64,000 bases of DNA from Robiginitalea sp. SC105 (lineage in GTDB: Bacteria; Bacteroidota; Bacteroidia; Flavobacteriales; Flavobacteriaceae), in the NCBI RefSeq assembly GCF_014243345.1, contig NZ_JACLZF010000001.1:1786682-1850681 (forward strand). The letters run 5' to 3'. How positions within the stretch are numbered: the first letter of the stretch is position 1; each line of letters begins with the position of its first letter. This document shows positions 5,875 through 43,611 of this stretch, in pieces. A program made the translations under genes and the position numbers. The notes beneath the pieces were generated by a model. That model had not been told where the DNA came from. It did not search any database and worked only from the letters and a program-made list of their open reading frames with translations.

Positions 5875-6648
5875 CTAGTGGAGCAAAAGCCCGTCCTCGA
5901 GCAGGATATCATACCGGTAACCCGCCCCAAAATCGCGGTTTAGGCTGACCCGGGCGCGGAAGGTGACAGTCTGCCCGGCCTCTGTGGTGGCCCCTGTCGT
6001 GAGCACCAGCTCGGCCGATTCTTCATCAGGGTCCCGGAGGTGCACCCAGTTTCGGCCCATTATCCCCGAATTTACCTTCGTACAGATACCGGTTACTTCT
6101 ACCCAGGAGCCGGCATGTTCCTCAGGGCTTTTCAAGAGTTGGTGGATCCCTATGCGGGTCACTTTTTCCGGATTGCCCTCCGGGGACACCGGGTTTTCGG
6201 ATCTGTCCCCCTGAAGGGCATGGGGATTGGGGGGCCCCTTGCGCAGTCGGGAACGCTCTGATTCTGTCACCAATCGGGTTACCAGGTAGAGCGTATCGAA
6301 TACCCGGCCCAGGGCCGGACTTTCAAAATTTTTCTTCTGAACTGCTTCATTGTAGAAATACGTGCCCCCTTTGGTGGCGTTCCCTGTGCGGGTGGCAATC
6401 CAGTATACCCGATCGCCTTCGTTTACCTGCAGGTACCAGTAGTTATCTGCCGGAAGGACTTCCGATACGCGGACCTCGTGGAGGTCCAGGACCACATCGC
6501 CAGTGTTTGAAGGTTGCGTAGTTGTGGCACTTAACTGGTAATCCCTTTCTCTTGGCCCTCCGCAGGAAAGCAGCAGACAGGCAATCAAGGCAGTCCACAT
6601 TTGGAGATTTATCGGTTGTTTCACGGGAATCCGTTTTAATTTGAGCAC
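5875..6648 (-). CDS. Lipoprotein with NrfJ-like / OB-fold domains
   Basis: A 257-residue protein with a basic start, a hydrophobic segment and a lipobox ending LLLSC, so a periplasm-facing lipoprotein is expected. The first half contains 'YWYLQV..GD..YWIAT' and 'YFYNEAVQKKNF...FDTLYLV'. The second half contains 'GSWVEVTGICTKVNSGIMGRNW', the hallmark of the small OB-fold proteins annotated as NrfJ-related that occur beside c-type cytochromes. Middle residues are proline- and charge-rich, probably a linker. The start codon overlaps the 3' end of hemA by 13 bases, so the two are translationally linked and follow the cytochrome operon. Function is not established; a role in cytochrome or heme handling is inferred from the family and the neighbours. 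Confidence 0.6.
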   Translation of the reverse strand: MLKLKRIPVKQPINLQMWTALIACLLLSCGGPRERDYQLSATTTQPSNTGDVVLDLHEVRVSEVLPADNYWYLQVNEGDRVYWIATRTGNATKGGTYFYNEAVQKKNFESPALGRVFDTLYLVTRLVTESERSRLRKGPPNPHALQGDRSENPVSPEGNPEKVTRIGIHQLLKSPEEHAGSWVEVTGICTKVNSGIMGRNWVHLRDPDEESAELVLTTGATTEAGQTVTFRARVSLNRDFGAGYRYDILLEDGLLLH

Positions 6649-7844
6649 GGTACAGGTAATTGGGGTCGGGAATTGCCCTCGTCTTGATAATGGATGGGCG
6701 GCTCCTCGTTATGCCGGATCACTTCGCGGATCATCCGGTTGGCAATCTGGTCAATCTGTTCCGGGCTTGCAAGCGGATAGGTGGATTGCAGTTGCTTCCG
6801 GATAGATCGCTTGCGGCGGGCCAGCAGTTGCCGGAAGGGTTCTTTCTGCACCCAATCCATATAGGCTTGAAGTTCTTCGGCGAGAATCCGTTCCACCGTG
6901 CGGATTGCCGCTTTGCGTTTGGCACGGGTGCCTTCCAGTTGGGCTGTAATGGTATCCAGGTCGCATCGGATTACATGTTTATGCGCACCGAGGGATTTGT
7001 CGATATTTCCCGGTACAGCGAGGTCGATAAGCAAAACCTTGCGATCAGCCGCAATCCCGCCCGTAATAAGCCCGGGACAGTCGGACACTGCGGAAACCAC
7101 TACGTCGAACGCTTCCAATTGGTTTTCCCTGAGCCGGACCCAGGGCCAGCTCTTTATATTGTTTTCCCGTACCAGGGCCATCATTTTTGCCTCCGTGCGA
7201 TTGGTGATGCTCACATCCCGGAAACCAAATCGCGGGCTGTACTTCAATACCTGTCGGATAATGTCCCCGGCTCCCACCAGCAGGATCCGCTTATTTTTGG
7301 CATCCGTTCCAAAACTGTCCTGGACCATTTTAAGGGCCTTGTAGGCGGTGGATGTGGTCCCGTCCCGGAAGGCCGTTTCGTTGCGGATCCGTTTATGTGA
7401 ACGGAAAACGGTCTGCATGCCCCTTTCCAGGAGCGATCCCTGCCTTCCCCTCCGAATGGCACGCCGGTAGGCTTGCTTCACCTGGTGGTGGATTTCGGCA
7501 TCCCCGATAACGGACGATTCCAGACCGGCCGATACAGCAAGCAGGTGCTGAAGGGATTCCCCGGTGGCATCGCAGCAGGTAAACAGGTTCTTTTCCCGGG
7601 TCCCGGGTTTGCCCGGGGAATGTGTCAGCAGGTAATCGCGAAGTTGTCCGGCGGTCGTGATGCTGGATTCGAAATAGACTTCCGTCCGGTTACAGGTTAC
7701 CAACAGCAAAAATCCGGTAATATCGGGAAAAGCTTCCTGTAGGCCCTGTAAAAAGGATTCTTTGTCCGCTTCTGTAAAGTGGAACCGCTCCCGCTGGGAA
7801 ACAGTGGCCGAATGATGGGATATACTGGTGAATCTGAGTTGCAT
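6636..7844 (-). CDS. hemA: Glutamyl-tRNA reductase
   Basis: A 402-residue protein of normal length for the family. It catalyses NADPH-dependent reduction of glutamyl-tRNA(Glu) to glutamate-1-semialdehyde, the first step of C5 tetrapyrrole synthesis, in the cytoplasm. The catalytic Cys51 lies in TCNRTE; SVIGDAEIHHQVKQAY follows at about 111-126 in the catalytic domain; the NADPH-binding LLVGAGDIIRQ starts near 188; the C-terminal part is the helical dimerisation domain. It sits 81 bases downstream of a cytochrome operon, not with hemC or hemD, and overlaps the following lipoprotein gene. It may be a second copy dedicated to supplying heme for the cytochromes; this cannot be decided without the rest of the genome. 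Confidence 0.92.
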   Translation of the reverse strand: MQLRFTSISHHSATVSQRERFHFTEADKESFLQGLQEAFPDITGFLLLVTCNRTEVYFESSITTAGQLRDYLLTHSPGKPGTREKNLFTCCDATGESLQHLLAVSAGLESSVIGDAEIHHQVKQAYRRAIRRGRQGSLLERGMQTVFRSHKRIRNETAFRDGTTSTAYKALKMVQDSFGTDAKNKRILLVGAGDIIRQVLKYSPRFGFRDVSITNRTEAKMMALVRENNIKSWPWVRLRENQLEAFDVVVSAVSDCPGLITGGIAADRKVLLIDLAVPGNIDKSLGAHKHVIRCDLDTITAQLEGTRAKRKAAIRTVERILAEELQAYMDWVQKEPFRQLLARRKRSIRKQLQSTYPLASPEQIDQIANRMIREVIRHNEEPPIHYQDEGNSRPQLPVPCSN

Positions 7845-7925: not shown

Positions 7926-8330
7926 CTATTCTTTCAGGGTTCTCACATAATTTACAATGAGCCACCGGTCTTCATCATCCGGTAGTTTTTTGGCAAATTC
8001 CGGCATATCGTCGCGTCCAAAGGTGGTTTTGTAAAACAGCGCCCCGTCGGTTTGAGCCTGAAAATCCGAGGTGGAAAAATCCCCCAGGTTACCTGTGAGG
8101 TCGGCTGCCTTGGGGCCATCCCCATACCCCTCGGACCCATGGCATGATTTGCAATGCTTGGAATAGAGGGATTTGCCGATGGCCATATTTTCCCGGTCGG
8201 ACGCATCGGTTGGGTTTTTCATGTCCTTGTATTCCTTGGGTACCACCCAGGTATCCTGGTAATTGGTAGTGAAAGCGAACAGAAACAGGGACAGGATCCC
8301 TGCAGCGGTTAGTAGCATCTTATTTTTCAT
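7926..8330 (-). CDS. Monoheme c-type cytochrome, periplasmic
   Basis: A 134-residue protein with an N-terminal hydrophobic signal (LLTAAGILSLFLFAF) and a single heme-attachment motif CKSCHG near residues 60-65. A distal Met in 'DDMPEFAKKL' and the C-terminal helix 'DRWLIVNYVRTL' are typical of small class I cytochromes c (cytochrome_CBB3 type). It is the last gene of the electron-transfer run, and its start overlaps the stop of the upstream anchored protein by 4 bases. It probably shuttles electrons in the periplasm for the NrfD/Fe-S module. The cytochrome call is certain; its partner is inferred. Confidence 0.88.
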   Translation of the reverse strand: MKNKMLLTAAGILSLFLFAFTTNYQDTWVVPKEYKDMKNPTDASDRENMAIGKSLYSKHCKSCHGSEGYGDGPKAADLTGNLGDFSTSDFQAQTDGALFYKTTFGRDDMPEFAKKLPDDEDRWLIVNYVRTLKE

Positions 8331-9205
8331 GTCAGATCATTTTTGGATTTAGAAATTTTGTAAAGATTTATCAGTAAATAGGCAATCGTCCCCCAAACCC
8401 CCAAAATCAGCAGGTTAGGTATCGTAAGCAGGAATATGGGGGTTTTATCGGGCGGCGACCACATGGTGCGTTCATCAAAAGTAGACTGGTCCGTTACCGG
8501 GACTCCGAGGGGTGCCGTAAAGCGGCTTTTGACCGTGCCGTAGTCCTCGTGGTCGGAGACCCGGGCCTCGAAGGTAAGGTTGCCATCGACACCTGGTATA
8601 TCCCCGGGAACGGGGACCATAACACTGCCGGAGTCATCGGTCAGGTTGAAATCCCCGCCGATGGCCAGTGGCCGGAAGAGCCTGGAAACGCTTATGCGGA
8701 CCGGATTCTCGCTTACCGGTTCTCCGGAGTACTCGTCGGTGAGGGTGGCTTTCACGTAATGCTGGTCGTTTTCTTCTACGATGTGGATATCCAGTATGGC
8801 GCGCCTGAAAGAAATCTCCCGTTCGACCTGTTTAAAGTCGGGATGATCCAGAGAGATTGCACGGTAGGTGTAGGTGCCGGTAGAATCCCGGTTGCATGCC
8901 CCGGGTTCCTGTAGGACAAAAACAGTTTTACCCATGTTGTCCGTAATTGCAGAACCCGTGGCCACCAGGCTGTCGTTCGGATACACGCAGAAAAGGTCAA
9001 AACCAAGACCCTCTGCAGGTTCAAAACCATTTTCCCCACGGAACCGGGCCTGAAGTTCCACTGCAGAAAAGTCCGGCATTTCAGCGATATGGTTCAGGGA
9101 GACCCGGACCTGGTTTTTTTCCTGGGCGCTCAGGTTCAGGCCGCTACATAGCAACAGGGCGGATGCCCAAAGGAGGTGTCGGGTATATTTAAGGCAAGGA
9201 CTCAT
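8327..9205 (-). CDS. Periplasmic beta-sandwich protein with C-terminal membrane anchor
   Basis: A 292-residue protein with a signal peptide (LLWASALLLCSGLNLSAQ), a long beta-rich periplasmic part that looks like two Ig/FixG-like sandwich domains (about 35-130 and 135-245), and one transmembrane helix near residues 260-280 (LTIPNLLILGVWGTIAYLL) followed by a short basic cytoplasmic tail. I do not recognise a named family. It overlaps its neighbours by 4 bases on both sides, between the NrfD gene and the cytochrome gene, so it is very likely a structural or assembly subunit of the same complex. Confidence 0.65.
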   Translation of the reverse strand: MSPCLKYTRHLLWASALLLCSGLNLSAQEKNQVRVSLNHIAEMPDFSAVELQARFRGENGFEPAEGLGFDLFCVYPNDSLVATGSAITDNMGKTVFVLQEPGACNRDSTGTYTYRAISLDHPDFKQVEREISFRRAILDIHIVEENDQHYVKATLTDEYSGEPVSENPVRISVSRLFRPLAIGGDFNLTDDSGSVMVPVPGDIPGVDGNLTFEARVSDHEDYGTVKSRFTAPLGVPVTDQSTFDERTMWSPPDKTPIFLLTIPNLLILGVWGTIAYLLINLYKISKSKNDLT

Positions 9206-10515
9206 AGCTCCCGGTTTTTAGCAGTTGATGCTTCCCGTTCTTCGATGGCATGGTGAATCGGGACTATCGGAAGAATCCGGACCAGCAGCGTGATTATGAG
9301 CAGCGCCATCGCGAGGGTACCAAAGGTCACGGTCCATTCCAGTCCCGTTGGGAAGTAGTGGTGCCAGCTCTCCGGCACTCCTTCAATAGGCAGAAACGGG
9401 TGCAGCAGGGTTGGCGTGACAATGAGGTAGCGTTTCCACCAGGCACTGACTACAACCACCAGGCTGATGACAAACAGGGGCATCGGTTTGCGAAAGCGGG
9501 GGAAAACCAGCAGGACAATGGGCATGACCAAACCGCCTGCGGTAACAAACCAGAAATAGGTGCTGTACGCACCCGTAAACAAGGATTGCAGGTGCTGGGC
9601 CTCTTCAACCGTATTTTTGTATGCGGGCACGAGGTACTCGTTTACGTTGAAATACAGGTAGACAAGGCAAAGCAGTACCAATAGGCGTCCCATCCGGTCA
9701 AAATGCATATCCGTGATAAATTTTTCCAATCCGTAAGCGCGGCGTATCACGTACATAACTGCAATAACCGCGCCAGCCCCGGCGACGAAGGCGCCAGCAA
9801 TGAAATATGGACCGAAGTTGGTACTGTCCCAGCCCGGGCGGTAGGTGGTTGCGAAAAGCCAGGCCGTGACGGTGTGAATCCCGAATGCCACGGGTATGAT
9901 GAGTACACTAAGCATCTGGATGGAGGTCCGGTACAGTTTTTTTTGCCGTTCCGAATTGTTCCAGTTGAGCGATAGTTTCGCGAACCTGCGGCTTAATTTG
10001 GGCCGGTCTTTAAAATACCGTTTCAACAGGGCAAAATCGGGTAACATGGGGTAATAGAGCAGCAACAGGCTGATGACCAGGTAGGTGGTGATCACGATAA
10101 CATCCCAGATGATCGGGGATTGCAGGCGGCCATGGGTAAACAGGAAAAACAGCCGCTCGGGCCGTCCCATATCGATAATGATGGTGAGCCCGGCCATCAC
10201 TATGGCCGCGACAGCAATGATTTCCGAAATACGCGTGAGCGGGGTTGCCCATTTGGCTCCGGAAAGGTGGAGCACTGCCGAAATCAGAGATCCCACCAGG
10301 CTGATGGCCACAAAGAAAACGAAATTGGAGATGTAAACCCCCCAGAGGGCGTAGTCCCGCATCCCGGTTACTACGAGTCCTTTTTGCAACTGGATGCCAT
10401 AGGCGATTAAAGAGGCGAGGATAATGGCCAGCAGGCAGGCTACCCAAACCTTACCCACCCGCGTAAACTTACGGGGTGCCAACTTCTCCAGGATTTCCTT
10501 TTGTGCTTCCATCAT
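9202..10515 (-). CDS. NrfD/PsrC-family integral membrane quinol-interacting subunit
   Basis: A 437-residue polytopic protein with about nine or ten hydrophobic helices. The first two helices (VACLLAIILASLIAYGIQL and VYISNFVFFVAISLVGSLISAVLHL) and 'DMGRPERLFFLFTHGRLQSPIIWDV' are typical of the NrfD/PsrC/ActC family, which exchanges electrons or protons between membrane quinones and a partner Fe-S protein. The start overlaps the stop of the four-cluster Fe-S gene, the usual partner. No molybdopterin catalytic subunit lies nearby, which sets it apart from classical polysulfide or DMSO reductases. The family is firm; the direction of electron flow is unknown. Confidence 0.88.
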   Translation of the reverse strand: MMEAQKEILEKLAPRKFTRVGKVWVACLLAIILASLIAYGIQLQKGLVVTGMRDYALWGVYISNFVFFVAISLVGSLISAVLHLSGAKWATPLTRISEIIAVAAIVMAGLTIIIDMGRPERLFFLFTHGRLQSPIIWDVIVITTYLVISLLLLYYPMLPDFALLKRYFKDRPKLSRRFAKLSLNWNNSERQKKLYRTSIQMLSVLIIPVAFGIHTVTAWLFATTYRPGWDSTNFGPYFIAGAFVAGAGAVIAVMYVIRRAYGLEKFITDMHFDRMGRLLVLLCLVYLYFNVNEYLVPAYKNTVEEAQHLQSLFTGAYSTYFWFVTAGGLVMPIVLLVFPRFRKPMPLFVISLVVVVSAWWKRYLIVTPTLLHPFLPIEGVPESWHHYFPTGLEWTVTFGTLAMALLIITLLVRILPIVPIHHAIEEREASTAKNREL

Positions 10516-11489
10516 TCTTCGGATAAGTCAACCGATTTGTAGGGTTCGTAATTCTCAAGTCCTTCCTGGAAATCCACCAGGCGATTGGAGGGGGGCAGGT
10601 AGTAAACGCTGGGCTCTGTCCCCAGTTGCTCCAGCAGGCGGTAGCCGGCCCGTTCCTCAAGTAACTCACTGAGGCGGAAGGATTCATCCCCGTTGGTCAC
10701 GGTATCTTCGTAGGCGTCCCCAAAGAAAAACACGCCGTTCGGGCAGGCAGTCACGCAATGGGGCAGCTCATTTTTATCGATCATGTGCGGACAGAAATCG
10801 CATTTGTCGACGGTTCCTTTCAGGCTGGGCATCCCGGCATAATCCGGGGAGCTTTCCGTGTGTTCCAGATGCATGTGGATCTCGGTGGTTTCCCCCTGTC
10901 TGGGTTCCTCCCAGTTGAATACCCGGGTGGAATACGGGCAGGCAGCCATACAAAAGCGGCACCCGATGCAACGCTCATTGTCGATCAGCACCAGGCCGTC
11001 ACGCCTTTTGAAAGTCGCATCCACCGGGCAAACCTTGACACAGGCGGGTTTATCGCAGTGCATGCACATGGTGGGCTGCCAATAGGGAGCCGTTTCCTGC
11101 GATTCCTGCATCTTGTATACCTTGATCCAGGCGTTTTCACCGGTTATGAAGTGGCTCTTGTTGCAGGAGGAAATACACTTCTTGGCATTTTTGCACCGGG
11201 CCAGGTCTACCACCATCACGAACTTCCGGTTTGGGAAACCCTCGCGGACCCGGTAATCGTCCCCCTTCAGGTTCTCCGTTTCCGACAAGGCGGTAACCGG
11301 TACCTCTATAAGGTGGCCGTCGGTAGTCATTAATTCCACGGTTTCGGAATTTGCGGAAGCGGATGCAGCGGCACCTGCATCCGAGCAACTTTTGAGTGCC
11401 TGCAGTGCGCCGGTGGCCACGCTGCCCAGCAGGGCGGCTTTTACTCCGTTCCGGACAAATTCCCGTCGTTTGTTGTTCGTATCATCCAT
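10512..11489 (-). CDS. Tat-exported four-cluster ferredoxin-like subunit (NrfC/HybA/ActB type)
   Basis: A 325-residue protein whose N-terminus (KRREFVRNGVKAALLG) is a twin-arginine signal. Four Cys groups follow: CKNAKKCISSC, CMHCDKPACVKVCP, CIGCRFCMAACP, and CDFC...CVTACP. This is the arrangement of the electron-transfer subunits paired with NrfD-type membrane proteins. In the first group the expected second Cys is Ala, giving C-x5-C-x3-C, so one cluster may be [3Fe-4S]. The gene overlaps nrfD-like downstream by 4 bases, and a 91-residue Tat-like protein lies 9 bases upstream. It should carry electrons on the periplasmic face between the quinone site and the cytochromes. What it reduces or oxidises is not visible. 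Confidence 0.88.
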   Translation of the reverse strand: MDDTNNKRREFVRNGVKAALLGSVATGALQALKSCSDAGAAASASANSETVELMTTDGHLIEVPVTALSETENLKGDDYRVREGFPNRKFVMVVDLARCKNAKKCISSCNKSHFITGENAWIKVYKMQESQETAPYWQPTMCMHCDKPACVKVCPVDATFKRRDGLVLIDNERCIGCRFCMAACPYSTRVFNWEEPRQGETTEIHMHLEHTESSPDYAGMPSLKGTVDKCDFCPHMIDKNELPHCVTACPNGVFFFGDAYEDTVTNGDESFRLSELLEERAGYRLLEQLGTEPSVYYLPPSNRLVDFQEGLENYEPYKSVDLSEE

Positions 11490-11498
11490 TAGCTAGGC

Positions 11499-11774
11499 TC
11501 ATTCATTGTCTATGGTGTCCAACCAGCTCTTCAGCGAGTCGTTTGAAATGTTTTTGGCCACTACCCGGGCCCGGTCAATCGTGCCTTTGGGTACACGCAC
11601 AGTGGTTCCATCAGGCTTCAGCAGGGTTTCATAGGGCTCGTCCAGGGATTCCCCCCCGGTATTTTGCCCGGCACCAGGCCCTTCCGCGGCCCCGGCCAGG
11701 AACGGTATGGCCAGGCCGCCTGCGAGCAGTGGCAGCAGTTTTCTCCTTGGGATGCCGTTTTTTTCGTCTTCCAT
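11499..11774 (-). CDS. Small exported protein with twin-arginine-like signal
   Basis: A 91-residue protein that begins MEDEKNGIPRRKLLPLLAGGLAIPFLAGAA, a twin-arginine (RRKLL) signal-like region, followed by only about 55 mature residues that are acidic and lack Cys or His clusters. It is tightly packed between the beta-barrel gene (2-base gap) and the Tat-exported Fe-S gene (9-base gap). Shared Tat targeting suggests it is co-exported or acts as an assembly partner of the Fe-S subunit. I do not recognise the family. The gene is supported by its position, frame and codon use. Confidence 0.6.
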   Translation of the reverse strand: MEDEKNGIPRRKLLPLLAGGLAIPFLAGAAEGPGAGQNTGGESLDEPYETLLKPDGTTVRVPKGTIDRARVVAKNISNDSLKSWLDTIDNE

Positions 11775-11776
11775 TT

Positions 11777-12658
11777 TTAAAAATTGTATTTACGGGTGAT
11801 GTTGAAGCCTATGAGGTATTCTCCTTTAAAAAAATCGTTCTGGTTGAACATGACATTTTTCTGGGGTACGATGCCGTAATAGTTACTGATAAACAGCTGG
11901 AATGCGTGGCCCGAAGTGCCGAATTCAACTCCCAGGCTAAACCCCGGTTCCGGGTCCATATCCAGGTCTACTCCATTGAGGTGGTGTACAAAGGGCTGGG
12001 TATAGTCCAGCAGGATGGCCGTTTGCGGGCTGATCTTATACCGTCCGCCGGCTGAAAGGGCGATCACATCATTACGCATGCGCTGGGGTACCAGGTTGTA
12101 ATGGGAAACGCTGCCGCCCACCTGCAGGGACAGGTTACGGTTGAACCGGCGTGCTACGATCAGTTGGTTGAAAAAGGAGTAACGGGATTGCCTGGTCGGG
12201 AAGAGGCCTCTTCCCTTGTTCCGGGCGTCAATGGTAAAATTCCCGTAATAGCTGACGCTTACGGGTATCCTGCCGGAGCGGGTCTGCTGGATCAGGCCCA
12301 GTTTCCAGCTGAAGTCCTGCAAACGGTCTACCTTGGTGGTCCCGTATCCGATCGTCAGCCGGTCGTGTATCGCATAGGAGGCCCCAACCCGGATATTCGC
12401 GGGTCCCCAGATCCCGATCAGGTCGTTGTTGTTGCTTCCTTCTGCATTAATCAGCCCGAAACGGTGGGAAAATACAATTTCCAGGGTGTTTTTCGGGTAC
12501 AGGACATTGGTTGGGTTGTCTATGATATGGGAACTCTCGAACGCAGCCCTTTCGGGTTTATCCTGCACCGTGTCCCTGGCGGTTTCCTGACCGAGGGCAA
12601 CACCATGTGCGATCAGGCCCGACGCCAGTAACAGGAAGCCCTTTTTTAAGATGTCCAT
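11777..12658 (-). CDS. Outer-membrane beta-barrel protein, DUF5777-like
   Basis: A 293-residue protein with a signal peptide ending near ALGQ. The mature part alternates hydrophobic and polar residues in many amphipathic strands (for example TLEIVFSHRFGLI, RLTIGYGTTKVD, PVSVSYYGNFTID) and ends KYNF, a beta-barrel closing residue. This matches the Bacteroidetes barrel family DUF5777, which I know to occur beside cytochrome genes. Within the operon it lies between two exported heme proteins and the Tat/Fe-S genes, so it may be the outer-membrane component of the electron-transfer module. The barrel is too small to resemble the 26-strand MtrB conduit directly. The family call is from memory of the pattern. 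Confidence 0.7.
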   Translation of the reverse strand: MDILKKGFLLLASGLIAHGVALGQETARDTVQDKPERAAFESSHIIDNPTNVLYPKNTLEIVFSHRFGLINAEGSNNNDLIGIWGPANIRVGASYAIHDRLTIGYGTTKVDRLQDFSWKLGLIQQTRSGRIPVSVSYYGNFTIDARNKGRGLFPTRQSRYSFFNQLIVARRFNRNLSLQVGGSVSHYNLVPQRMRNDVIALSAGGRYKISPQTAILLDYTQPFVHHLNGVDLDMDPEPGFSLGVEFGTSGHAFQLFISNYYGIVPQKNVMFNQNDFFKGEYLIGFNITRKYNF

Positions 12659-12670
12659 GTTTGGAAGTTT

Positions 12671-13066
12671 TTAATTGTTTTCGGCGCCCCGGTCTATCCA
12701 GGTTTTGATTAGCTGTATTTCTTCTGGGGTCAATTCAAAAGAGATTTGTATGCGGTGGCCAACCCCGGGCAACCGTTGGTAGAACAAGCTGCCCTCGGCA
12801 TTGCCGGCCTGTATGTACCCCCCTTGCTGCAGTGCCGCATAGGCCTGCCCCACCCGGAGGTCCGGGTCCTGGATCAGGCCGTTGTGGCACTGGGTACAGT
12901 TCTTGTTCGCCCGGGAAAACAGGGGTTCGATATCATCGGCAAATGAAATCACTATATCGTCTGGCAGGTTATCAATGGGTGCTTGCGGCAACTCCTGGTC
13001 GTAGTAACAGGAGCCCACGAATAATAGTAATCCGATGCCCATACATATTCCGAGTACTCGTTTCAT
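12671..13066 (-). CDS. Monoheme cytochrome c-like lipoprotein
   Basis: A 131-residue protein with a signal ending in the lipobox VGSC (Cys19) and one heme motif CTQCHNG preceded by 'DIEPLFSRANKN', the layout of the planctomycete-type (PSD1-like) cytochrome domain. The tail 'ELTPEEIQLIKTWIDRGAENN' is the standard C-terminal helix of that domain. The operon places it between the hexaheme lipoprotein and the beta-barrel, so both heme lipoproteins may face the same compartment. The heme attachment site is certain; the redox partner is inferred. Confidence 0.85.
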   Translation of the reverse strand: MKRVLGICMGIGLLLFVGSCYYDQELPQAPIDNLPDDIVISFADDIEPLFSRANKNCTQCHNGLIQDPDLRVGQAYAALQQGGYIQAGNAEGSLFYQRLPGVGHRIQISFELTPEEIQLIKTWIDRGAENN

Positions 13067-13111
13067 GCGCTAAAATTTTTCAGTTCCGGAAGCAGTTGCA
13101 CCTGTGTCCGA

Positions 13112-14182
13112 TCAATTTTCAAGGGCCTCGATGGAATTCTTGAGAAGTGCCTTGGCATAGTTCGGATTGTGCACTCCCATGCTCTTGTCTTCCATCAGCA
13201 TCCTCCAGTTCCAGGTTGCCTGGGCGACATTTGCAGGGAATACTCCCAGGACTGCACTGCTGTCCGGGGCAATGGAACCGGCCGCTATCAGGAGGTCGCG
13301 GAGCCGATCAAAGTCGGCTTCAAAACCGTCCACCTCCGATGGTGGTCCACCCGTATGGCAATTCAGGCAGGTGTTTGTAGTGGGCTCCCAGGTGTGCCCC
13401 CCATCCGAGCCATTGGTCGTGGGGCCCATGTGGCAGGCGATACAGGAAGATCCCTGCCGGTGCCCGGCCGATCCACGCCCGGGATAGTCCAAGGCCCCGG
13501 AAATATTCGCGCCAAAGATGCCCTCCAGCATGGTGGACTGTGGCCCGTGGTGCGGCCCGAAGCGGCTACTGGTAATCTCAAAATCCGCCGTTGGCCCGGG
13601 GATGTCATATTGGTTACGGGGCTGGTGGCAGTTCACGCAGAGGTTGCTCAGGCCCAGCTCATCCGAGGCATTCCGGATATCGATGGTGATATCCGGGTCC
13701 AGGAAGAGGTCCACCGGCGTGATACTGCGGACCGCCTTATCATTGCCGTCCTCCTCGAAATTAAACGATCGGTGCATATCGTGGCAGGTGGTGCAGCTGA
13801 TCGGGTCCGGGACATCGTAACCATCCGGATTGGCTGTGGCAAAACCCAGCGAGTCGATGTAGAGGTTGGACAGGTAGTCCTGGAACCCCTGGTCATTGTG
13901 GCAGCGGGCGCAGGTGGCACTTGCGCCAAAGGATCTCAGGTTGGCATGTGCGGATTCCGAATATGCCAGGAGGATGGGTTCCCGGTAGGCGTTGGAGTGA
14001 CAGTTGATACAGGAGGTGGTGCCATCCACCCCGTCCATCCCGTCGATCCCGTCGATGCCGTCGATGCCGTCGGCCCCGGGAGGTCCCGGTATGGGGTCGC
14101 TGGTACACTGCACCATAAAGGTTGCACTGGCAACCAAAAGCAAAAATCTAATAAATCCGAATGTTTTCATAAGGCCGGTCAT
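13112..14182 (-). CDS. Hexaheme c-type cytochrome lipoprotein with collagen-like neck
   Basis: A 356-residue protein with a lipobox (FMVQC, Cys26), then a collagen-like run of Gly-X-X triplets (GADGIDGIDGIDGMDGVDG), then six CxxCH heme motifs: CINCH, CARCH, CTTCH, CVNCH, CIACH and CLNCH. The number and spacing resemble multiheme cytochromes of respiratory electron transfer. I see no CxxCK active-site heme, which argues against a classical nitrite reductase. It is the first gene of the eight-gene module, and an inverted repeat lies 21 bases upstream of the start. An alternative start at Met5 (14170) is possible; the first ATG has the more A-rich upstream context. Confidence 0.88.
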   Translation of the reverse strand: MTGLMKTFGFIRFLLLVASATFMVQCTSDPIPGPPGADGIDGIDGIDGMDGVDGTTSCINCHSNAYREPILLAYSESAHANLRSFGASATCARCHNDQGFQDYLSNLYIDSLGFATANPDGYDVPDPISCTTCHDMHRSFNFEEDGNDKAVRSITPVDLFLDPDITIDIRNASDELGLSNLCVNCHQPRNQYDIPGPTADFEITSSRFGPHHGPQSTMLEGIFGANISGALDYPGRGSAGHRQGSSCIACHMGPTTNGSDGGHTWEPTTNTCLNCHTGGPPSEVDGFEADFDRLRDLLIAAGSIAPDSSAVLGVFPANVAQATWNWRMLMEDKSMGVHNPNYAKALLKNSIEALEN

Positions 14183-22384: not shown

Positions 22385-22425
22385 ACTATTAATTGTATAA
22401 ATAAACCTTATAAATCAGACTCGCT

Positions 22426-36273: not shown

Positions 36274-37056
36274 TCAAAAATCCTTCCGCCGCGCTTGCCG
36301 GGTGAGCCACCAGATGGGAAGCCCCGTCCAGAGGAGCAGCACCCCGAGGGAGATCAGCAAGCCGGCCTCCGTGCCGAAAAATTGTTTGAATACCGCCCCG
36401 GTATATCCCAGCAAAGCCGAGATATCGAGTTTCAGCAGGATCAGTGTGCGGGACAGGTCGATGGGGTTGAGCAGCGTCCCGGCCAGGGAGAAATTATCCA
36501 GGGGGTAGGCCTCGAAGAGGATGAGCGACAAAAGGAAGAGCCCGTCGTAGATCACGGCAAGGAAGAGCCACAGGAGCACGGCGTATCCAAACCCCTTGAT
36601 CTTGTTCGCATTGGACAGGGCGATATTGAAGGACAGGGCAGTGAATATCAGTGTGAGGAAGCCACCCGTCACCAGCAGCAGCCCGAAATCCCAGATGGCG
36701 CTGCTTTTGAACAGGCCGTAAAAAACAAAGGGGATGCCCAGGCCCAAAACGAGGCTCAGGCACAGGGAACCGGCCACCCCGAAATACTGGCCCAGGAAGA
36801 TTTGCGTCCGTTTCAGGGGCTGGGCGAGCAGCAACTGGGTGAATTCACGGGAATTGTAGAAATACATCACCCCGAAAATGGTTGCGATCAGGGGTACCAG
36901 GACGATGATCACATTCATCAGGGTGATCACCGCTTTGGAGAGGTCGTTGTTCAGGAACAGCAACATAAAGCCAAGGGCCAGGTAGAAGATGAAATAGACA
37001 TAGCTCCACCGGCTCCGCATCAGGTCGTAAAAGCTGTATTTGAGTATTTTAAACAT
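36274..37056 (-). CDS. nosY: ABC transporter permease of the nitrous oxide reductase cluster
   Basis: A 260-residue protein with six hydrophobic helices and the early 'YSFYDLMRSRWSYVYFIFYLALGFMLLFL', then 'YFYNSREFTQLLLAQPLKRTQIFLGQY', typical of NosY/ABC-2 permeases. It overlaps nosF by 8 bases and is the last gene of the nosDFY block. NosDFY supplies a sulfur or copper species needed to build the CuZ centre of NosZ in the periplasm. Function follows from the family and the gene order. Confidence 0.92.
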   Translation of the reverse strand: MFKILKYSFYDLMRSRWSYVYFIFYLALGFMLLFLNNDLSKAVITLMNVIIVLVPLIATIFGVMYFYNSREFTQLLLAQPLKRTQIFLGQYFGVAGSLCLSLVLGLGIPFVFYGLFKSSAIWDFGLLLVTGGFLTLIFTALSFNIALSNANKIKGFGYAVLLWLFLAVIYDGLFLLSLILFEAYPLDNFSLAGTLLNPIDLSRTLILLKLDISALLGYTGAVFKQFFGTEAGLLISLGVLLLWTGLPIWWLTRQARRKDF

Positions 37057-37756
37057 GGTCTTTCATCGCTATGGCCGCAATGGCGTGCTCCACATCCTGC
37101 TGCCCGGTTTTGTTCTTCAGTGCGTCCAGCGTTCCCCGGAAATAGATTTTGCCTTCGAGCAGGTAGATGACCTGGTCGGCTACCTCTTCCACAAACTGCA
37201 TGATATGGGTGGTGACCAGGAGGGTTTTCCCCTGCTCCCTCATTGAGTGGATGCGTTCCTTCAGCCGGATCAGGGAGGCGGGGTCCAGGCCGGTGGTCGG
37301 TTCATCCAGGATATAGAGCGGGGTGTCGAACATAAAGGTCAGCACCAGATTCACTTTTTGGAGCGTTCCCCCGGACAAAGCACTGAGCCGCTTGTCCAGG
37401 TGGGGTTCCAGGCGGAACATCCCGATCAGGGGGGCCGGGTCTGCGGTTTGTTTCCTCAGGTCGAGGATCATGTCGATGAGTTCGCCAACCCGCAGGTTGC
37501 CCGGGAAACTGGCAATCTGGGGCAGGTAGCTGATCGCTTCCCGGTACCCCGGGTTCCTGCGGATATCGGCCCCGCCCACCGAGATCGTTCCGCGGTCGGG
37601 GAGCACCATCCCGAGTATGCACTTGATGAGCGTGGTCTTCCCGGACCCGTTTGGCCCGAGTACGGCGTAGATGCCGCCTGGCTTCAAGTCCAGGGCCAGC
37701 CCCTCGAGGACCTGGTTTTTTCCGAATCGCTTGTGCAGGTTTTTAATCTGTATCAT
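37049..37756 (-). CDS. nosF: ABC transporter ATP-binding protein
   Basis: A 235-residue ATPase with Walker A 'GPNGSGKTTLIKC', signature 'ALSGGTLQKVNLVL', Walker B 'LYILDEPTTGLDP' and switch His in 'LLVTTHIMQFVEE'. It overlaps nosY downstream by 8 bases and nosD upstream by 4 bases. Partner of NosY and NosD in CuZ maturation. Confidence 0.94.
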   Translation of the reverse strand: MIQIKNLHKRFGKNQVLEGLALDLKPGGIYAVLGPNGSGKTTLIKCILGMVLPDRGTISVGGADIRRNPGYREAISYLPQIASFPGNLRVGELIDMILDLRKQTADPAPLIGMFRLEPHLDKRLSALSGGTLQKVNLVLTFMFDTPLYILDEPTTGLDPASLIRLKERIHSMREQGKTLLVTTHIMQFVEEVADQVIYLLEGKIYFRGTLDALKNKTGQQDVEHAIAAIAMKDHV

Positions 37757-39063
37757 AGGTTGCGTTTCATTTTGGGGTACGGGTCCACCAGGTTATCCGG
37801 CGTAAAGACGGGGGATACTTTTTCCGAGAAATCGATCAGGTCCATAAACAGGCTCCTGAGGAGGACGATGGTTTCCGGTGTGCGGTTCACGATATAGGAG
37901 AACAGTTTTACCGGTCGGTAGGGGACGTCCCCCCGGCCGTCCCTGTCCAGGTCGTAGCCCGCGTAATCGCTCCAGAAGTTGCCCCGGAATACATTGTCGT
38001 TCACATTGCTGTTGTAGGAGACGTCAAAGGCGTTGTGTAGAAAGTCATTGCCGCTGAACGTATTTGCGTAGCAGGCCCCCCGGACCTTGATGGCCCAACC
38101 GTTATTGGCGAATACATTCCCGCGGTATGCAATGCGGTTGGACCCCTCAATGCTGATGCCTACCGTGTTTTCCTCAAAGGTGTTCCCGGTGATCTCGGCA
38201 TCGTTTATCTCCTTGAGCAACAACCCGAAACTGGCGGTTCCCCAATTTTTCCGGAAGGTGTTGCTGTGCATTTCAATGTGTTTTGAAAACATCACGGCCA
38301 CCCCGGCCCCGTTGTTCTCAAACCGGTTGTTCCGGTACTGGTCGTCATTGGAGAACATAAAATGCAGTCCGTAGCGGATATTATCGGCACTGGTGTTGTT
38401 TTCGATCAGTATCCGGTCGGAAAATTCCAGGTAGATCCCGTCCCGTACCCTTTTAACAATATTGCCGGTAACCACCACATCCTTGCAGTACCACAACTGG
38501 ATCCCGTTTCCCGAATTGAATTCTTCCTCGGCCTCGCCCCGGATGGTATTGTCCTCCACGAGGCCTTCACGAGACTTTTCCAGGTAGATTCCAAAAAACA
38601 GGCCTTCCATCACGACGTTCCGGATGGTAAAGGCCCGGCTGTTGACCACCCGGATGGCGGCATTGTCGCGGGTGTAGCTGACCCCCACATTCCGCACTTC
38701 GAGGCCGTCGATGGTGACGCTGTCCGCCTCGATGGTAATCACTTCGCCTTTTTTTTCCCCGTCGATGACGGCCCGCCCCTCCGCGATCAAAGTAAGGGGT
38801 TTGTCGATGGCGATTTCCGATTCCCGGTAAGTACCCGCCCCGATCAGCAGCGTATCGTGGGCCGTGGCCAGGGCGATGGCTTCCCGGAGGCTGCTTACCC
38901 CGCAGTCCGGGCATACCCGAATAGTGCCCGGTTGGGCCAGGGCCGGCACCCAGGTCAGGCACAGGGTTAATAGCAAAATTAAGCTAAGCGCGCCTGCTGC
39001 ATCGGGGAAGGTGCTGCCGTGGGGTGCAACCCGGGGTCTCAGATATGTTAGGCGCTTTGCCAT
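37753..39063 (-). CDS. nosD: Periplasmic NosD, CuZ maturation factor
   Basis: A 436-residue protein with a signal peptide (about 24-43), followed by 'TIRVCPDCGVSSLREAIALA' and a right-handed parallel beta-helix of carbohydrate-binding/sugar-hydrolase (CASH) repeats, rich in 'NTFRNNxxG' units. Family length is about 430. It lies directly before nosF with a 4-base overlap. The long N-terminus includes 'LTYLRPRVAPHGSTF', possibly reflecting a start further downstream (a Met is not available before the signal), so I keep the given start. Confidence 0.92.
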   Translation of the reverse strand: MAKRLTYLRPRVAPHGSTFPDAAGALSLILLLTLCLTWVPALAQPGTIRVCPDCGVSSLREAIALATAHDTLLIGAGTYRESEIAIDKPLTLIAEGRAVIDGEKKGEVITIEADSVTIDGLEVRNVGVSYTRDNAAIRVVNSRAFTIRNVVMEGLFFGIYLEKSREGLVEDNTIRGEAEEEFNSGNGIQLWYCKDVVVTGNIVKRVRDGIYLEFSDRILIENNTSADNIRYGLHFMFSNDDQYRNNRFENNGAGVAVMFSKHIEMHSNTFRKNWGTASFGLLLKEINDAEITGNTFEENTVGISIEGSNRIAYRGNVFANNGWAIKVRGACYANTFSGNDFLHNAFDVSYNSNVNDNVFRGNFWSDYAGYDLDRDGRGDVPYRPVKLFSYIVNRTPETIVLLRSLFMDLIDFSEKVSPVFTPDNLVDPYPKMKRNL

Positions 39064-39071
39064 GTGGGCAG

Positions 39072-39365
39072 TTATCGGATGATCAGGAATTTCGAATCGG
39101 TACAGGCTGTAACCCGGTGGGGCGTATCCCGCTCAAACCGCAAAGCCTCCAACCTGTCCAGCCGGTAGGAGGCATCCCGGATCTGGAAATCAATGGACCC
39201 TTCCAGGACCACCAGGAGAGCATCCCTGGGGGAGACGTGTTCCGGGAAAACCGCAGCCTTTTCCAGGCTGATGCTCAGCACTTCCGGGGTGTTTTCCACG
39301 GACAGCCTGCGGATTTGCAACTGGTCCATGGGTTGGCGGAGGATGGTATCGTCTTTTTGGTACAT
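39072..39365 (-). CDS. Small cupin-like protein in the nos cluster
   Basis: A 97-residue cytoplasmic-looking protein with no signal. The beta-strand pattern with 'AVFPEHVSPRDALLVVLEGSIDFQIRD' and 'LDRLEALRFERDTPHRVTA' is that of a single cupin barrel: G-x5-H-x3-like first motif with His, and the 'P-x-x-x-PH' second motif. It lies 3 bases after nosL and 8 bases before nosD. It may bind a metal or a small regulator ligand. I do not know it as a standard nos gene in other phyla. Confidence 0.65.
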   Translation of the reverse strand: MYQKDDTILRQPMDQLQIRRLSVENTPEVLSISLEKAAVFPEHVSPRDALLVVLEGSIDFQIRDASYRLDRLEALRFERDTPHRVTACTDSKFLIIR

Positions 39366-39368
39366 GTG

Positions 39369-39800
39369 CTAGGGGTTTATAGTTTTTCTGACTTGTTGCC
39401 AGTCGTAGAGTTCACCGCCGAACCGCGCCAGGGCCTCCCGGGCATCCCCGGGGTGTGCAAAGGCCGTCAGGTAGGCGCCCATGGGGCTCGGCAGGTTTTC
39501 GCTGATCAGGTAGGAAGCCTCCCGGGCATCGGTCAGGCCGCCGGGATTGGCAAAATCGGTGACCAGGTAATGGGCCATCTCCACGCCGGGTACCTCCCGG
39601 AGGTAGTTGATCATGCACTCGGTGGCATCGAACTTATAGACCTTGCCCTTGTCGGTGACTAACTCGGCAGCGTGTTGCCTGTCCACGATGGTCATCCGGC
39701 AGAAATGGCAACCATCCGTCCCGTAGGCGATGGGCCGGGGCCCGGTCTGGCAGGCAGACAGGATCGCAATAAGAAGTAGGGGTATCCATCGTTTCATCAT
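39369..39800 (-). CDS. nosL: NosL copper-binding lipoprotein
   Basis: A 143-residue lipoprotein (lipobox LSAC, Cys17) with the NosL motif 'DGCHFCRMTI' (C-x2-C-x-M) and 'KFDATECMINYL'. NosL binds Cu(I) and is a metallochaperone for NosZ. Its start overlaps the stop of the upstream membrane protein by 4 bases. The length is slightly short of the family average (~170) but contains all the recognised motifs. Confidence 0.93.
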   Translation of the reverse strand: MMKRWIPLLLIAILSACQTGPRPIAYGTDGCHFCRMTIVDRQHAAELVTDKGKVYKFDATECMINYLREVPGVEMAHYLVTDFANPGGLTDAREASYLISENLPSPMGAYLTAFAHPGDAREALARFGGELYDWQQVRKTINP

Positions 39801-40393
39801 GCCGTAATTTTATGTTTCGACCTGCGTCCCATCCGGTACGCCACAAACCCGAGGAGGATCCCGGCGGCCAGGAAATAGGCACCTGCCTGCGGATAGGAGT
39901 GGGCCGTAAAATTCAGGATGTGCTTCGTGCCAAAAAAAGGCGGCTGGAAGCCCATTACGGACCCGTCGGGGTTGGTGAACTTCATGATGGCCCGCGGGTC
40001 CAGGTCATGGCCGTAGTCATGCTCCCAGAGATAGAAATCAACCAGCCCTGCCGAACTTACCAGAAGCATCATGAGGAACCAGTAGAGGTACCATTTATAA
40101 GTCCCTTTCCAGGCGATCAACAGCCCGATCAGCGAGGTCAGGATGATCCCTATGGGGAAGATCTTGAATTCCGGGATGGCATCGGGGATATACTTCATCC
40201 CCACATAATGGTTCATCAGGTTGATGTTCTTGATGTCGTGGGGGTTGGCATCGGTAAAGTCGTTGATATGGATATACATTCCCAGGGGTGTCGGGTACTG
40301 CGGAGCTTCCAGGGTGATCTTCCACAAGGGGAAGACAAAGAGGAGCAGGGGTAGCAGGGCCGCTGCAAACATCATTAATCGTCCTTTTTTCAT
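39797..40393 (-). CDS. Membrane protein typical of Bacteroidetes nos clusters
   Basis: A 198-residue protein with four hydrophobic helices (N-terminal LLPLLLFVFPLWKI; ILTSLIGLLIAW; YLYWFLMMLLVSSAG; AGAYFLAAGILLGFV). Its periplasmic loops are rich in His and Asp ('YIHINDFTDANPHDIKNINLMNHYVGM', 'DFYLWEHDYGHDLDP', 'GTKHILNFTAHSYPQ'), suggesting metal or heme contacts. It lies between nosZ and nosL. I know it as an unnamed companion of clade II nosZ in Bacteroidetes; no function has been shown that I am aware of. Confidence 0.65.
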   Translation of the reverse strand: MKKGRLMMFAAALLPLLLFVFPLWKITLEAPQYPTPLGMYIHINDFTDANPHDIKNINLMNHYVGMKYIPDAIPEFKIFPIGIILTSLIGLLIAWKGTYKWYLYWFLMMLLVSSAGLVDFYLWEHDYGHDLDPRAIMKFTNPDGSVMGFQPPFFGTKHILNFTAHSYPQAGAYFLAAGILLGFVAYRMGRRSKHKITA

Positions 40394-40413
40394 GGCTTCG
40401 GGTTCTGAAGGTT

Positions 40414-40438
40414 AAAAGGGCCGGCCTGAGCCGGCCCT
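40414..40438 (-). terminator. Hairpin between nosZ and the nos accessory genes
   Basis: A 9-bp GC-rich stem AGGGCCGGC/GCCGGCCCT with a 4-nt loop is followed by TTTT on the minus strand. Position, 40 bases after the nosZ stop and 21 bases before the next ATG, suggests partial termination or mRNA stabilisation that lets nosZ be expressed above the accessory genes. Confidence 0.65.
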
Positions 40439-40477
40439 CTGATTATCAGGATATGGCTATCCCGGGTTTTACGGGGC

Positions 40478-42433
40478 TTATTCGCCCAGCGACCAGGTCA
40501 GCTCCGTATTGGAGTTGGCCGGGGACACGCGGACGTATCCCTGCATTTCCTGGTGCAGGGCCGAGCAGAAGTCCGTACAGTAAAACGGCCAGACACCGGG
40601 TTGTTTGGGTTCCCAGACAAAGGTCTCGGTCTGTCCGGGCATGATCAGCAATTCGGAGGTATTTGCCCCGATCATCGAAATCCCGTGGGGAACATCATAG
40701 TCCTGTTCCATGTTGGTGACGTGGAAGTAGACCTTGTCGCCCACCTTGACCCCCTCGATATTGTCCGGGTTGAAATGGCTTCGGATTGTGGTCATGTAAA
40801 TATGAACATCCTTGCCATCGCGTTCCACCCGGACATCGGCATCGGTGGAAACACCATAGGGGTGCTTGTTGTCTTTGAGCTCAAAGATCTTCTTGGACCG
40901 TGCCTTGACGATATCCGCGGCAATCCCCGCGGCATAGTGGGGTTCCCCAACCGTCGGGAAATCCAGCAGCAGTTCCATCTTATCCCCGGAGATGTCGTAG
41001 AGCTGGGCCGATTGGGTCACCTCCGGCCCGGTGGGCAGGTAGCGGTCCTTGGTAATCTTGTTCATAGCCACTACGTATTTGCCGAAGGGTTTCCGGGAGT
41101 TTCCGCCCGGGATCATCAGGTGCCCGACAGAATAAAAACAGGGCTGGCGGTCTACCACTTCCCAGGTACCCAGTTTCCATTTGACCACTTCAGAGGAGAT
41201 AAAGAAGGTGGTATACGCATTTCCCTCCCCGTCGAACTCCGTATGGAGTGGGCCCAGGCCGGGCTGGCTGACCGTGCCTGCCAGTACATCCTCAAAACTC
41301 AGGATCGGGATGCCGTAGGCGTCCCCGTCGTATTTTTCATTCTCGATGGCTTCCAGCATCCTGGTAAAGGAATGCACTGTCAGGTCCGCCGATAATTTCC
41401 CGTTCCCGACAATATATTCCCCGGAAGGGTCCACATCACATCCGTGGGGGGATTTCGGGGTTGGCAACAGGAATACGGCCCCGGGGACATCCGCCGGGTT
41501 TACCACGCGGACCTCCTTCTTCATGGTCGAAGTGGCCATCTGGGTACTCTCGTCATACACGTTGTGGGCGTAATTGGCCGGCATCAGCGTACCGCCCCCG
41601 TTGTTTACATATTCCTCGATTTTCTTCCAGTTGACGGCCGCAATGAAATCCTTGTCGTTCTGGGAGGCGTTCACCTCCAGCAGGGAATTGGCCTCTTCCG
41701 TGTTATAAGTGGTAAAGAAGAACCAGCCGTGGGATTTGCCCCGTCCAGGGTGGGAAAGGTCGTAATCAAACCCCGGCATGATCAGCTGAAATTTGATATC
41801 CATCCCGCCATCCTCCGGGTCCACACTGATAAAGGTGAGGGCCCCCTTGAAATTTCCCTTGTATTCGGATATGGGCATATCCCGCTGGGGGATGGGTACC
41901 GAGAAACGGGTCCCCGCCACCACGTATTCCGTGTTTTCGGTCACAAAGGCGGAACTGTGGTTCCCGGCGCTGTTGGGCACCTCGATGATCTCCGTGGTCT
42001 CAAAAAGGCTCAGGTCTACTTTGGCAATCCGCGGGGTATTGTTCCCGTTGATAAATACCCAGCGGCCATCCAGTTCGCCCGCTGTTTGCGAGATATCCGG
42101 GTGGTGGGAGTCATCCCAGGGAATAAACCCGTGGGAGGTGTTCAGCATGGGCCTGGTCTCTTCGTTGTACCCGTAGGCCTTTTCGGCGTCCTGCGAAAAC
42201 ACCGGGATTACCTTGAAAAGGCGTCCGGAAGGCAGGCCGTAAACCGAGAGCTGGCCGCTGAAGCCGCCCGAGATAAAGGCGTAGAATTCGTCGTGTTCCC
42301 CGGGGGCTACATATACGCGTTCTGCCGCGTTCGAGGTAAGGGCCCCGTTGGAACCCTGGCCCCCTTCCCCGCATCTTACAAAAAACAGGGAGGCAACCAG
42401 GAACGTTGCAATGGTGTATTTGAATCGTGTCAT
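40478..42433 (-). CDS. nosZ: Nitrous oxide reductase, clade II
   Basis: A 651-residue periplasmic copper enzyme that reduces N2O to N2. The signal 'YTIATFLVASLFFVRC' is Sec/lipoprotein type instead of twin-arginine, the hallmark of clade II enzymes. The beta-propeller carries the CuZ histidines (in 'DSHHPDIS', 'SHPGRGKSHGW', 'NYAHN', 'SPHGCD', 'GPLHTEF'). The cupredoxin domain has 'FHVTNMEQDYDVPHGI' and the CuA ligands in 'YCTDFCSALHQEMQ' (C619, C623, H627, M630). All expected ligand motifs are present, so it should be active. The upstream genes are a fasciclin lipoprotein and a c-type cytochrome; nosL and nosDFY follow. Confidence 0.96.
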   Translation of the reverse strand: MTRFKYTIATFLVASLFFVRCGEGGQGSNGALTSNAAERVYVAPGEHDEFYAFISGGFSGQLSVYGLPSGRLFKVIPVFSQDAEKAYGYNEETRPMLNTSHGFIPWDDSHHPDISQTAGELDGRWVFINGNNTPRIAKVDLSLFETTEIIEVPNSAGNHSSAFVTENTEYVVAGTRFSVPIPQRDMPISEYKGNFKGALTFISVDPEDGGMDIKFQLIMPGFDYDLSHPGRGKSHGWFFFTTYNTEEANSLLEVNASQNDKDFIAAVNWKKIEEYVNNGGGTLMPANYAHNVYDESTQMATSTMKKEVRVVNPADVPGAVFLLPTPKSPHGCDVDPSGEYIVGNGKLSADLTVHSFTRMLEAIENEKYDGDAYGIPILSFEDVLAGTVSQPGLGPLHTEFDGEGNAYTTFFISSEVVKWKLGTWEVVDRQPCFYSVGHLMIPGGNSRKPFGKYVVAMNKITKDRYLPTGPEVTQSAQLYDISGDKMELLLDFPTVGEPHYAAGIAADIVKARSKKIFELKDNKHPYGVSTDADVRVERDGKDVHIYMTTIRSHFNPDNIEGVKVGDKVYFHVTNMEQDYDVPHGISMIGANTSELLIMPGQTETFVWEPKQPGVWPFYCTDFCSALHQEMQGYVRVSPANSNTELTWSLGE

Positions 42434-42468
42434 TTTTTTGGTGTTTATGTTAATTGCATTGATGGTTG

Positions 42469-43044: not shown

Positions 43045-43050
43045 AGTTAG

Positions 43051-43557: not shown

Positions 43558-43581
43558 ACCATATGGGATTACAATTCGAAT

Positions 43582-43589: not shown

Positions 43590-43611
43590 CTGGGAGAATC
43601 AGGGGAAAAAG

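Follow-up and report, generated by a model that had tools for sequence, protein, structure and literature searches.

A four-gene NrfD-type core in Robiginitalea that may be a minimal menaquinol:cytochrome c oxidoreductase

The genome of Robiginitalea sp. SC105 (3.58 Mb) carries a module of eight genes within the 64-kb stretch of DNA analysed here, which we call the window. Four of these genes form a core: a probably exported iron-sulfur (Fe-S) protein, an NrfD-like membrane protein, a beta-sandwich protein and a small monoheme cytochrome c. We believe, at odds only slightly better than even (a probability of roughly 0.5), that this core works as a minimal menaquinol:cytochrome c oxidoreductase, something like a cut-down alternative complex III (ACIII), an argument made from sequences. 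Menaquinol would be oxidised at a site on the periplasmic side of the NrfD-like protein, as its conserved residues suggest. From there the architecture implies that electrons would pass to the Fe-S subunit, exported by the twin-arginine translocation (Tat) pathway, and then to the cytochrome c, which would hand them to users such as the N2O reductase NosZ and a cytochrome c oxidase. The beta-sandwich protein may anchor or dock the cytochrome at the membrane. The core would amount to the equivalents of ActB-C, ActC and ActE of ACIII with a DsrP-type quinone site. In Flavobacteriaceae and several further lineages the operon also includes a cassette of a variable heme lipoprotein, a monoheme lipoprotein, a predicted barrel and a Tat-signal mini-protein. 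This cassette probably diverts part of the electrons to heme carriers anchored in a membrane, in all likelihood the outer one.

An earlier note on this DNA described eight tightly packed genes, and that description is confirmed with one correction, to the cluster count of the Fe-S protein, given below: the open reading frames (ORFs) exist at the stated coordinates (7926-14182), all on the minus strand, and the CXXCH counts are 6, 1 and 1 for the hexaheme protein, the small lipoprotein and the last gene. The first five genes are separated by 45, 12, 2 and 9 bases and three 4-base overlaps follow, so the eight genes are likely a single operon. The same note spoke of an unclassified respiratory chain segment. 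This fits, since no subunit of the molybdenum (Mo) type was found beside the module in the loci searched and a search of the open-access literature found no paper naming this gene set. The accessible parts of genome papers on Melioribacter (PMC3534657) and Lutibacter (PMC5219744) do not mention it, and those of a survey of 4,545 NrfD-like sequences (PMC8076601) list no complex built in this way.

The core and its missing molybdenum subunit

A scan with the Fe-S protein recovered 77 loci whose record titles include Flavobacteriaceae, Cyclobacteriaceae, Chitinophagaceae and Ignavibacteria; the scan with family profiles covered 85. The survey of gene order that the earlier note called for, with Flavobacteriaceae and Ignavibacteria loci in it, finds the same four-gene core conserved across Bacteroidota in the order Fe-S protein, NrfD, sandwich protein, cytochrome. 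Another flavobacterium, Muriicola jejuensis KCTC 22299, has the module too (locus L053, genome G242). Second, tandem cores occur, for example in L044, L054, L061, L064, L071, L076, L081, L082, L083 and L101. Loci of the Chitinophagaceae type have the core without the cassette and then a 387-residue protein, which had no Pfam match in the example tested. The idea that neighbours at these loci form a nos or nor cluster is unsupported by Pfam on ten proteins. Copper or efflux genes near the Cyclobacteriaceae loci (CusB/CusA-like by reading, a P-type ATPase by Pfam) were judged to be mere neighbourhood.

The claim that the module has no catalytic subunit is supported for the loci searched. BLAST searches that started from FdhF and NapA-like proteins (E 1e-5, alignments longer than 250 residues) found no subunit of the molybdenum-bis(pyranopterin guanine dinucleotide) type at the module loci, and the Mo-like half of ActB (residues 91-750, E 1e-3) found only ActB itself among the ORFs of these loci. 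This absence covers three BLAST queries and loci of which a number have flanks that are short or ended by the contig. The NapA-like and FdhF homologs that gave alignments of more than 250 residues lie only at L130 and L229-L232. A check for molybdopterin oxidoreductases elsewhere in the genome yields a single PF00384 match (E <= 0.001), on another contig, which is above the NCBIfam cut-off for the FdhF/YdeP family. The earlier note also held that NrfD with an Fe-S partner usually feeds an Mo enzyme or forms ACIII. This is incomplete, as NrfD/Fe-S pairs without Mo are unexceptional according to PMC6303296. Members of the ten-helix NrfD group (QrcD, HybB, HmcC, DsrP and ActC) are described there with non-standard partners such as multiheme cytochromes and cofactor-less subunits, so a missing Mo enzyme is not strange by itself.

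The Fe-S protein was said to hold four clusters. The four motifs are there but full ligation is not: the protein has 15 cysteines rather than 16, with C99, C105 and C109 at motif I and three complete motifs after it, which leaves one cluster with three Cys ligands. Every one of the 94 aligned rows (92 distinct, tandem paralogs included) has all 15, and at the second Cys position of motif I 67 rows have Ala and 23 have Cys, with Gln and Leu in 2 rows each. We infer a [3Fe-4S] cluster at this motif. By analogy with NarH, motif I would hold the cluster farthest from the quinone, where an Mo subunit would dock. The three-Cys motif of the genome's own ActB comes third, as read from its sequence. 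Loss of the second Cys was considered as a trait tracking the cassette: it is absent from all 45 cassette-linked rows, and the 23 rows that retain it have no cassette. This is confounded by clade, with 22 rows in which no cassette was detected also lacking this Cys, and we do not rely on it (these exceptions include short loci and tandem second copies; 3 rows were unplaced).

Export of the Fe-S protein by the Tat pathway is likely because RRx[FL] occurs within the first 40 residues in 90 of the 94 rows. The Tat-signal mini-protein encoded beside it is weakly similar to its N-terminus: a hidden Markov model (HMM) of the mini-protein, built from the window's copy and 36 others, picks up 20 of the 94 Fe-S sequences at E <= 1e-3, whereas the one encoded in the window reaches only E 0.02.

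The protein that the earlier note called an anchored sandwich is well described by that name. Its AlphaFold2 model, with a predicted local distance difference test score (pLDDT) of 89.2, has two strand-rich regions and a C-terminal helix at residues 257-291. A fold search returned generic immunoglobulin- or macroglobulin-like matches only, with query template modelling scores (TM-scores) of 0.20-0.33 among the matches listed. The core cytochrome keeps C60, C63, H64 and M109 in all 80 rows of its alignment (78 distinct). Cytochromes with His/Met ligation tend to have a high potential, so the invariant Met109 favours quinol oxidation as the direction of the core.

The NrfD-like protein and the direction of electron flow

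The NrfD-like protein matches five PDB sequences, the top ones being 8k9e_C (E 1.9e-48) and the ActC chain 6f0k_C; 6btm_C, also subunit C of ACIII, is among them. We placed 101 module NrfDs in a tree with 23 ActC, 12 of 30 DsrP and four NapA-linked NrfD sequences, rooted on one ActF, with identical stretches merged and the HybB, QrcD, NrfD and PsrC types left out; a midpoint-rooted version is uninformative. The 101 module sequences are monophyletic (FastTree support 0.983) and separate from ActC, DsrP and the NapA-linked NrfDs; the 23 ActC are likewise monophyletic (0.992).

The Pfam match given in Table 1 and the conserved quinone-site residues D115 and S133 mark this as an NrfD-like quinone protein. 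His139, Ser164, Asp169 and Asp253 of ActC align with D115, S133, D138 and L220 of the module protein. At each of the positions Y61, S133 and D138 the residue is present in 100 of the 101 module sequences and one sequence has a gap; at D115 there are 94 with Asp, 6 with Cys and one gap; H214 is His in 65; the position of ActC Asp253 is Leu or Ile in every one. The quartet Y61/D115/S133/D138, at a spacing of 54-18-5, is common to the module NrfDs and 12 of 12 DsrP rows, and the ActC rows (23/23) differ in having D/H/S/D at 54-26-5. Its counterparts in DsrP1 are Tyr52, Asp106, Ser124 and Asp129, given as quinone residues in Table 2 of PMC8076601. R362 aligns with Arg395 of ActC and is Arg in all 101 module sequences and all ActC rows and Lys in the DsrP rows. 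With a DsrP-type quartet and an ActC-type arginine, the module NrfD therefore mixes traits of the two families.

How close, then, is the module to known complexes? Like ACIII (ActABCDEF), it combines an Fe-S protein and an NrfD with a multiheme cytochrome and with a monoheme cytochrome c that resembles ActE, and the module HMMs match the genome's own ActB (103 bits), ActC (264 bits) and, with the core cytochrome model, ActE (51 bits). However, there is no relative of the Mo-like N-terminal half of ActB at the module loci searched by BLAST; there is a single NrfD gene and no second one like ActF, which sits at the genome's ACIII locus (L129); the NrfD falls outside the ActC clade and has a different quinone quartet; and the profile of the module's hexaheme protein does not match ActA, with BLAST in a two-sequence comparison aligning short stretches only (best E 0.001). 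DsrMKJOP is alike in its quinone quartet and spacing and in its scores: the Fe-S protein reaches 183 bits on the DsrO model and the NrfD 151 bits on the DsrP model, on which the genome's own ActC scores 66. Yet neither cut-off (200 and 350) is reached, the NrfD clade is separate from DsrP, and none of the eight module proteins scores above the cut-off for DsrM, DsrK or DsrJ against NCBIfam (the hexaheme protein has 15.8 of 100 bits on DsrJ). In PMC6303296 and PMC8076601 (Table 1), QrcABCD, NhcABCD and HmcA-F likewise join NrfD, an Fe-S protein and a multiheme cytochrome with no working Mo site; the module differs from Qrc in that no QrcB-like neighbour was seen and the hexaheme protein is unlisted on the QrcA model at E <= 0.1. 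A cluster of other Flavobacteriaceae (L229-L232) also has Fe-S, NrfD and multiheme cytochrome genes, but with an Mo-type subunit of 774-784 residues (NapA by reading), two tetrahemes and an NrfD of a separate clade. The NrfD of this NapA-like cluster exceeds the DsrP cut-off in G010 and G064. Judged by its sequences, the module is like a cut-down ACIII but is not a member of ACIII, since the Mo-like half of ActB, ActF and membership of the ActC clade were each tested for and none was found, nor is it a Dsr complex.

Electrons could also run the other way, as in Qrc, with cytochrome c electrons, perhaps from an external source, reducing menaquinone. The Asp in helix 2 (D115) is what QrcD and DsrP have, not the His of ActC, the Asp253 of ActC is absent, and QrcA is a hexaheme as well (PMC8076601 Table 1). 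Against this, the His/Met cytochrome suggests a high potential, and the hexaheme protein does not appear on the QrcA model, whereas the genome's own ActA does match it (63.8 bits, cut-off 180). We consider the reverse direction improbable and return to oxidation of menaquinol as the preferred reading.

The cassette and the users of the electrons

The hexaheme lipoprotein matches general multiheme models, several of them above cut-off (Cytochrome_C7, NrfB-like, c3). Outside its heme motifs, a 19-row alignment has His in every row at H79, H137, H211, H263 and H338 and in at least 90% of rows at H241; this alignment is cleaner than the full set of 36 rows (31 distinct, the window's own protein twice). 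H212 beside H211 is also conserved. Six extra candidate distal His for six hemes suggest that the protein is a bis-His electron carrier rather than an enzyme; its AlphaFold2 model is poor (pLDDT 56.6). The earlier note had offered the hexaheme protein as the terminal partner, and one could imagine it, or the EB_dh protein that takes its place elsewhere, as a terminal reductase like NrfA or MccA. NrfABCD and MccACD provide a precedent (PMC8076601 Table 1), and there is a weak match to Cytochrom_C552 near the C-terminus, below cut-off. But the conserved His suffice to ligate the second face of all six hemes, and in many relatives that keep the core the cassette has another heme protein or none was found there, so we downgraded the catalytic role and regard it as highly improbable.

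The identity of the heme protein beside the cassette varies. Among 61 distinct loci (of 69, after 8 duplicates were dropped; same strand, within 4.5 kb of the Fe-S gene) 26 have the hexaheme protein, 7 an EB_dh protein and 5 both; YceI stands there in 2 and accompanies EB_dh in 1, no heme protein was detected in 16, and the remaining 4 are at contig edges; the YceI profile was built from one sequence and may miss members. For statistics we used 199 Flavobacteriaceae genomes in which the module was called from the Fe-S protein at E <= 1e-60. The module is present in 13 of them, NosZ in 90, DUF5777 in 96, NirK in 37, NrfA in 26 and the hexaheme family in 12. The last group consists of 11 module genomes and a contig-end fragment in G080, and the two module genomes without the hexaheme protein, G094 and G114, have EB_dh in its place (L145 and L143). 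All four EB_dh proteins submitted to Pfam are over its cut-off (L044, L066, L092, L098), and 19 of 20 distinct ORFs of this type contain CX3CH (the other is a 101-residue fragment); these proteins possibly bind covalent heme besides heme b. Lipoproteins of the EB_dh type lie at L044:5059-6291 and L066:3964-5244, among others.

The monoheme lipoprotein has matches in 49 of the 85 loci scanned, some of them short. Ten relatives have no CXXCH and mostly have a longer-spaced C...CH such as CX4CH. A literature search on DUF5777, the family of the predicted barrel, found no paper. We picked 20 regions around DUF5777 matches away from the core, and 19 also hold a match to the monoheme lipoprotein. 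These pairs suggest that the barrel and the monoheme lipoprotein are an independent unit with which the core has been combined. In five such regions whose neighbours were read, including the genome's second DUF5777 copy (L179), there is a YceI-like protein of 173-191 residues. The off-core cassettes (L179-L198) often come with this YceI-like gene and a small OB-fold-like gene by reading.

These genes invite a different explanation, in which quinol electrons leave through the Fe-S protein and heme lipoproteins for the cell surface and an external acceptor there; the exit through the outer membrane would be formed by the DUF5777 barrel together with the hexaheme or EB_dh protein. Such a conduit through the barrel was one suggestion of the earlier note. 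It would explain why a heme lipoprotein, a monoheme lipoprotein and a barrel share an operon with the core and why the hexaheme family is nearly exclusive to module genomes, and the likeness to porin-cytochrome conduits of the MtrAB type lies in barrel and multiheme lipoprotein genes standing together. L036, L065 and L136 go further, having 11-heme and 3-4-heme cytochromes and propeller-like proteins next to the module. But the likeness to MtrAB ends with six hemes and a barrel of only 293 residues. We take MtrB-type barrels to be large enough to sheathe a cytochrome of the decaheme class and judge this one too small. DUF5777 occurs mostly in genomes without the module, and the 16 cassette loci in which no hexaheme, EB_dh or YceI protein was detected also speak against an exit of this kind. 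The 11-heme protein is found in 2 of the 199 genomes, one of which has no module, and is absent from the window genome, so its cluster was rejected as a general partner. We keep the conduit as an unlikely rival to the preferred reading.

The strongest link with a user of electrons is to NosZ, which is present in 13 of 13 module genomes and in 77 of 186 others (expected 5.9; Fisher p = 2.0e-5, uncorrected for ancestry). No link was found to NirK (2/13) or NrfA (3/13). In the window the module is separated by about 22 kb from the near end of the nos cluster and by about 26 kb from nosZ; in G007 a single contig carries both a NosZ and an NrfD match, with about 23 kb between them. One could argue from this that the module is a dedicated donor for N2O respiration that mainly feeds NosZ. 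However, NosZ is common without the module, the statistic ignores phylogeny, and some module genomes do without NosZ, as counted below; we think so narrow a role distinctly unlikely. NosZ is likely an acceptor of electrons from the module, though not an obligatory one.

Several observations weigh against an oxidoreductase that feeds NosZ and other users, and they should be stated together. The direction of electron flow is called into question by the Leu or Ile in place of ActC Asp253, by the incomplete conservation of H214 and by the Cys that sometimes replaces D115. Since this genome has an ACIII cluster of its own, by reading and by HMM, a second enzyme needs a reason. Among 49 module genomes reached through their loci (from 50 of the 77 module loci, some repeating genomes of the family set such as G242), 40 have NosZ and 9 do not. 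Within the genus NosZ is present in 5 of 6 genomes with the module (G005 lacks it) and in 4 of 4 without it, one of these four, G008, being 74% complete. The association with NosZ at the family level may reflect lifestyle or ancestry.

Positions, neighbouring genes and implications

Table 1. Features of the window (coordinates are window positions).
Feature	Position	Strand	Basis or remark
Hexaheme c-type lipoprotein with collagen-like GXDG linker	13112..14182	-	6 CXXCH; lipoprotein by reading of signal
Monoheme lipoprotein, PSCyt1-like	12671..13066	-	1 CXXCH; weak PF07635 match, E 0.0044, below cut-off
DUF5777 beta-barrel protein (predicted)	11777..12658	-	PF19089 E 1.2e-72
Tat-signal mini-protein, no cysteine	11499..11774	-	No Pfam family
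Probably Tat-exported Fe-S electron-transfer subunit (DsrO/ActB-C/NrfC-like; 15 Cys)	10512..11489	-	Fer4_11 E 3e-19; DsrO model 183 bits
NrfD-like integral membrane quinone protein (ActC/DsrP-related)	9202..10515	-	PF03916 E 1.9e-34
Periplasmic beta-sandwich protein with C-terminal membrane helix	8327..9205	-	AlphaFold2 pLDDT 89.2; no Pfam family
Monoheme cytochrome c, ActE-like, His/Met ligation predicted	7926..8330	-	Cytochrome_CBB3 PF13442 E 3e-11; 1 CXXCH
hemA (glutamyl-tRNA reductase)	6636..7844	-	PF05201 E 3.5e-33; next downstream, 81 bases past module
nos cluster, possible electron user	36274..43719	-	nos_propeller PF18764 at C1:1827618-1827830, window about 40937
nosZ	40478-42433	-	Within nos cluster; PF18764 match at about 40937
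NosD-like	37753-39063	-	By reading
NosY-like	36274-37056	-	By reading
nos-cluster monoheme cytochrome c	about 43051-43719	-	By reading

Matches to the hemA HMM are present in 24 loci. The gene after hemA (5875-6648) is OB-fold-like by reading and has no Pfam match; its relatives occur at 12 of 85 loci. Farther along the window, 22001-30000 has a low content of guanine plus cytosine (35-38% against 50-62% over most of the window) and genes that read as glycosyltransferase- and flippase-like; it is perhaps an acquired polysaccharide island. Two paralogs with Tat signals that lie near each other, at 46655-48910 and 49436-51796, read as large subunits of the molybdenum-hydroxylase type.

A broader proposal can be drawn from these comparisons: that the core represents an additional class of quinol:cytochrome c oxidoreductase, alongside bc1/b6f and ACIII, one that passes electrons across the periplasm to interchangeable heme lipoproteins of the outer membrane (hexaheme c or CX3CH proteins of the EB_dh fold) and so supports an outer-membrane respiratory branch without an MtrAB-type conduit. 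We put this forward as a tentative idea, on the doubtful side. The variable heme lipoprotein beside the core makes an outer-membrane respiratory branch directly testable. If the core is a menaquinol:cytochrome c oxidoreductase, the Bacteroidota would have a second, undescribed route from menaquinol to cytochrome c beside ACIII, present in several families and, in the Flavobacteriaceae, associated with N2O reductase. The core would also illustrate how little a complex of the NrfD type needs: an Fe-S protein, an NrfD, an anchor and one cytochrome.

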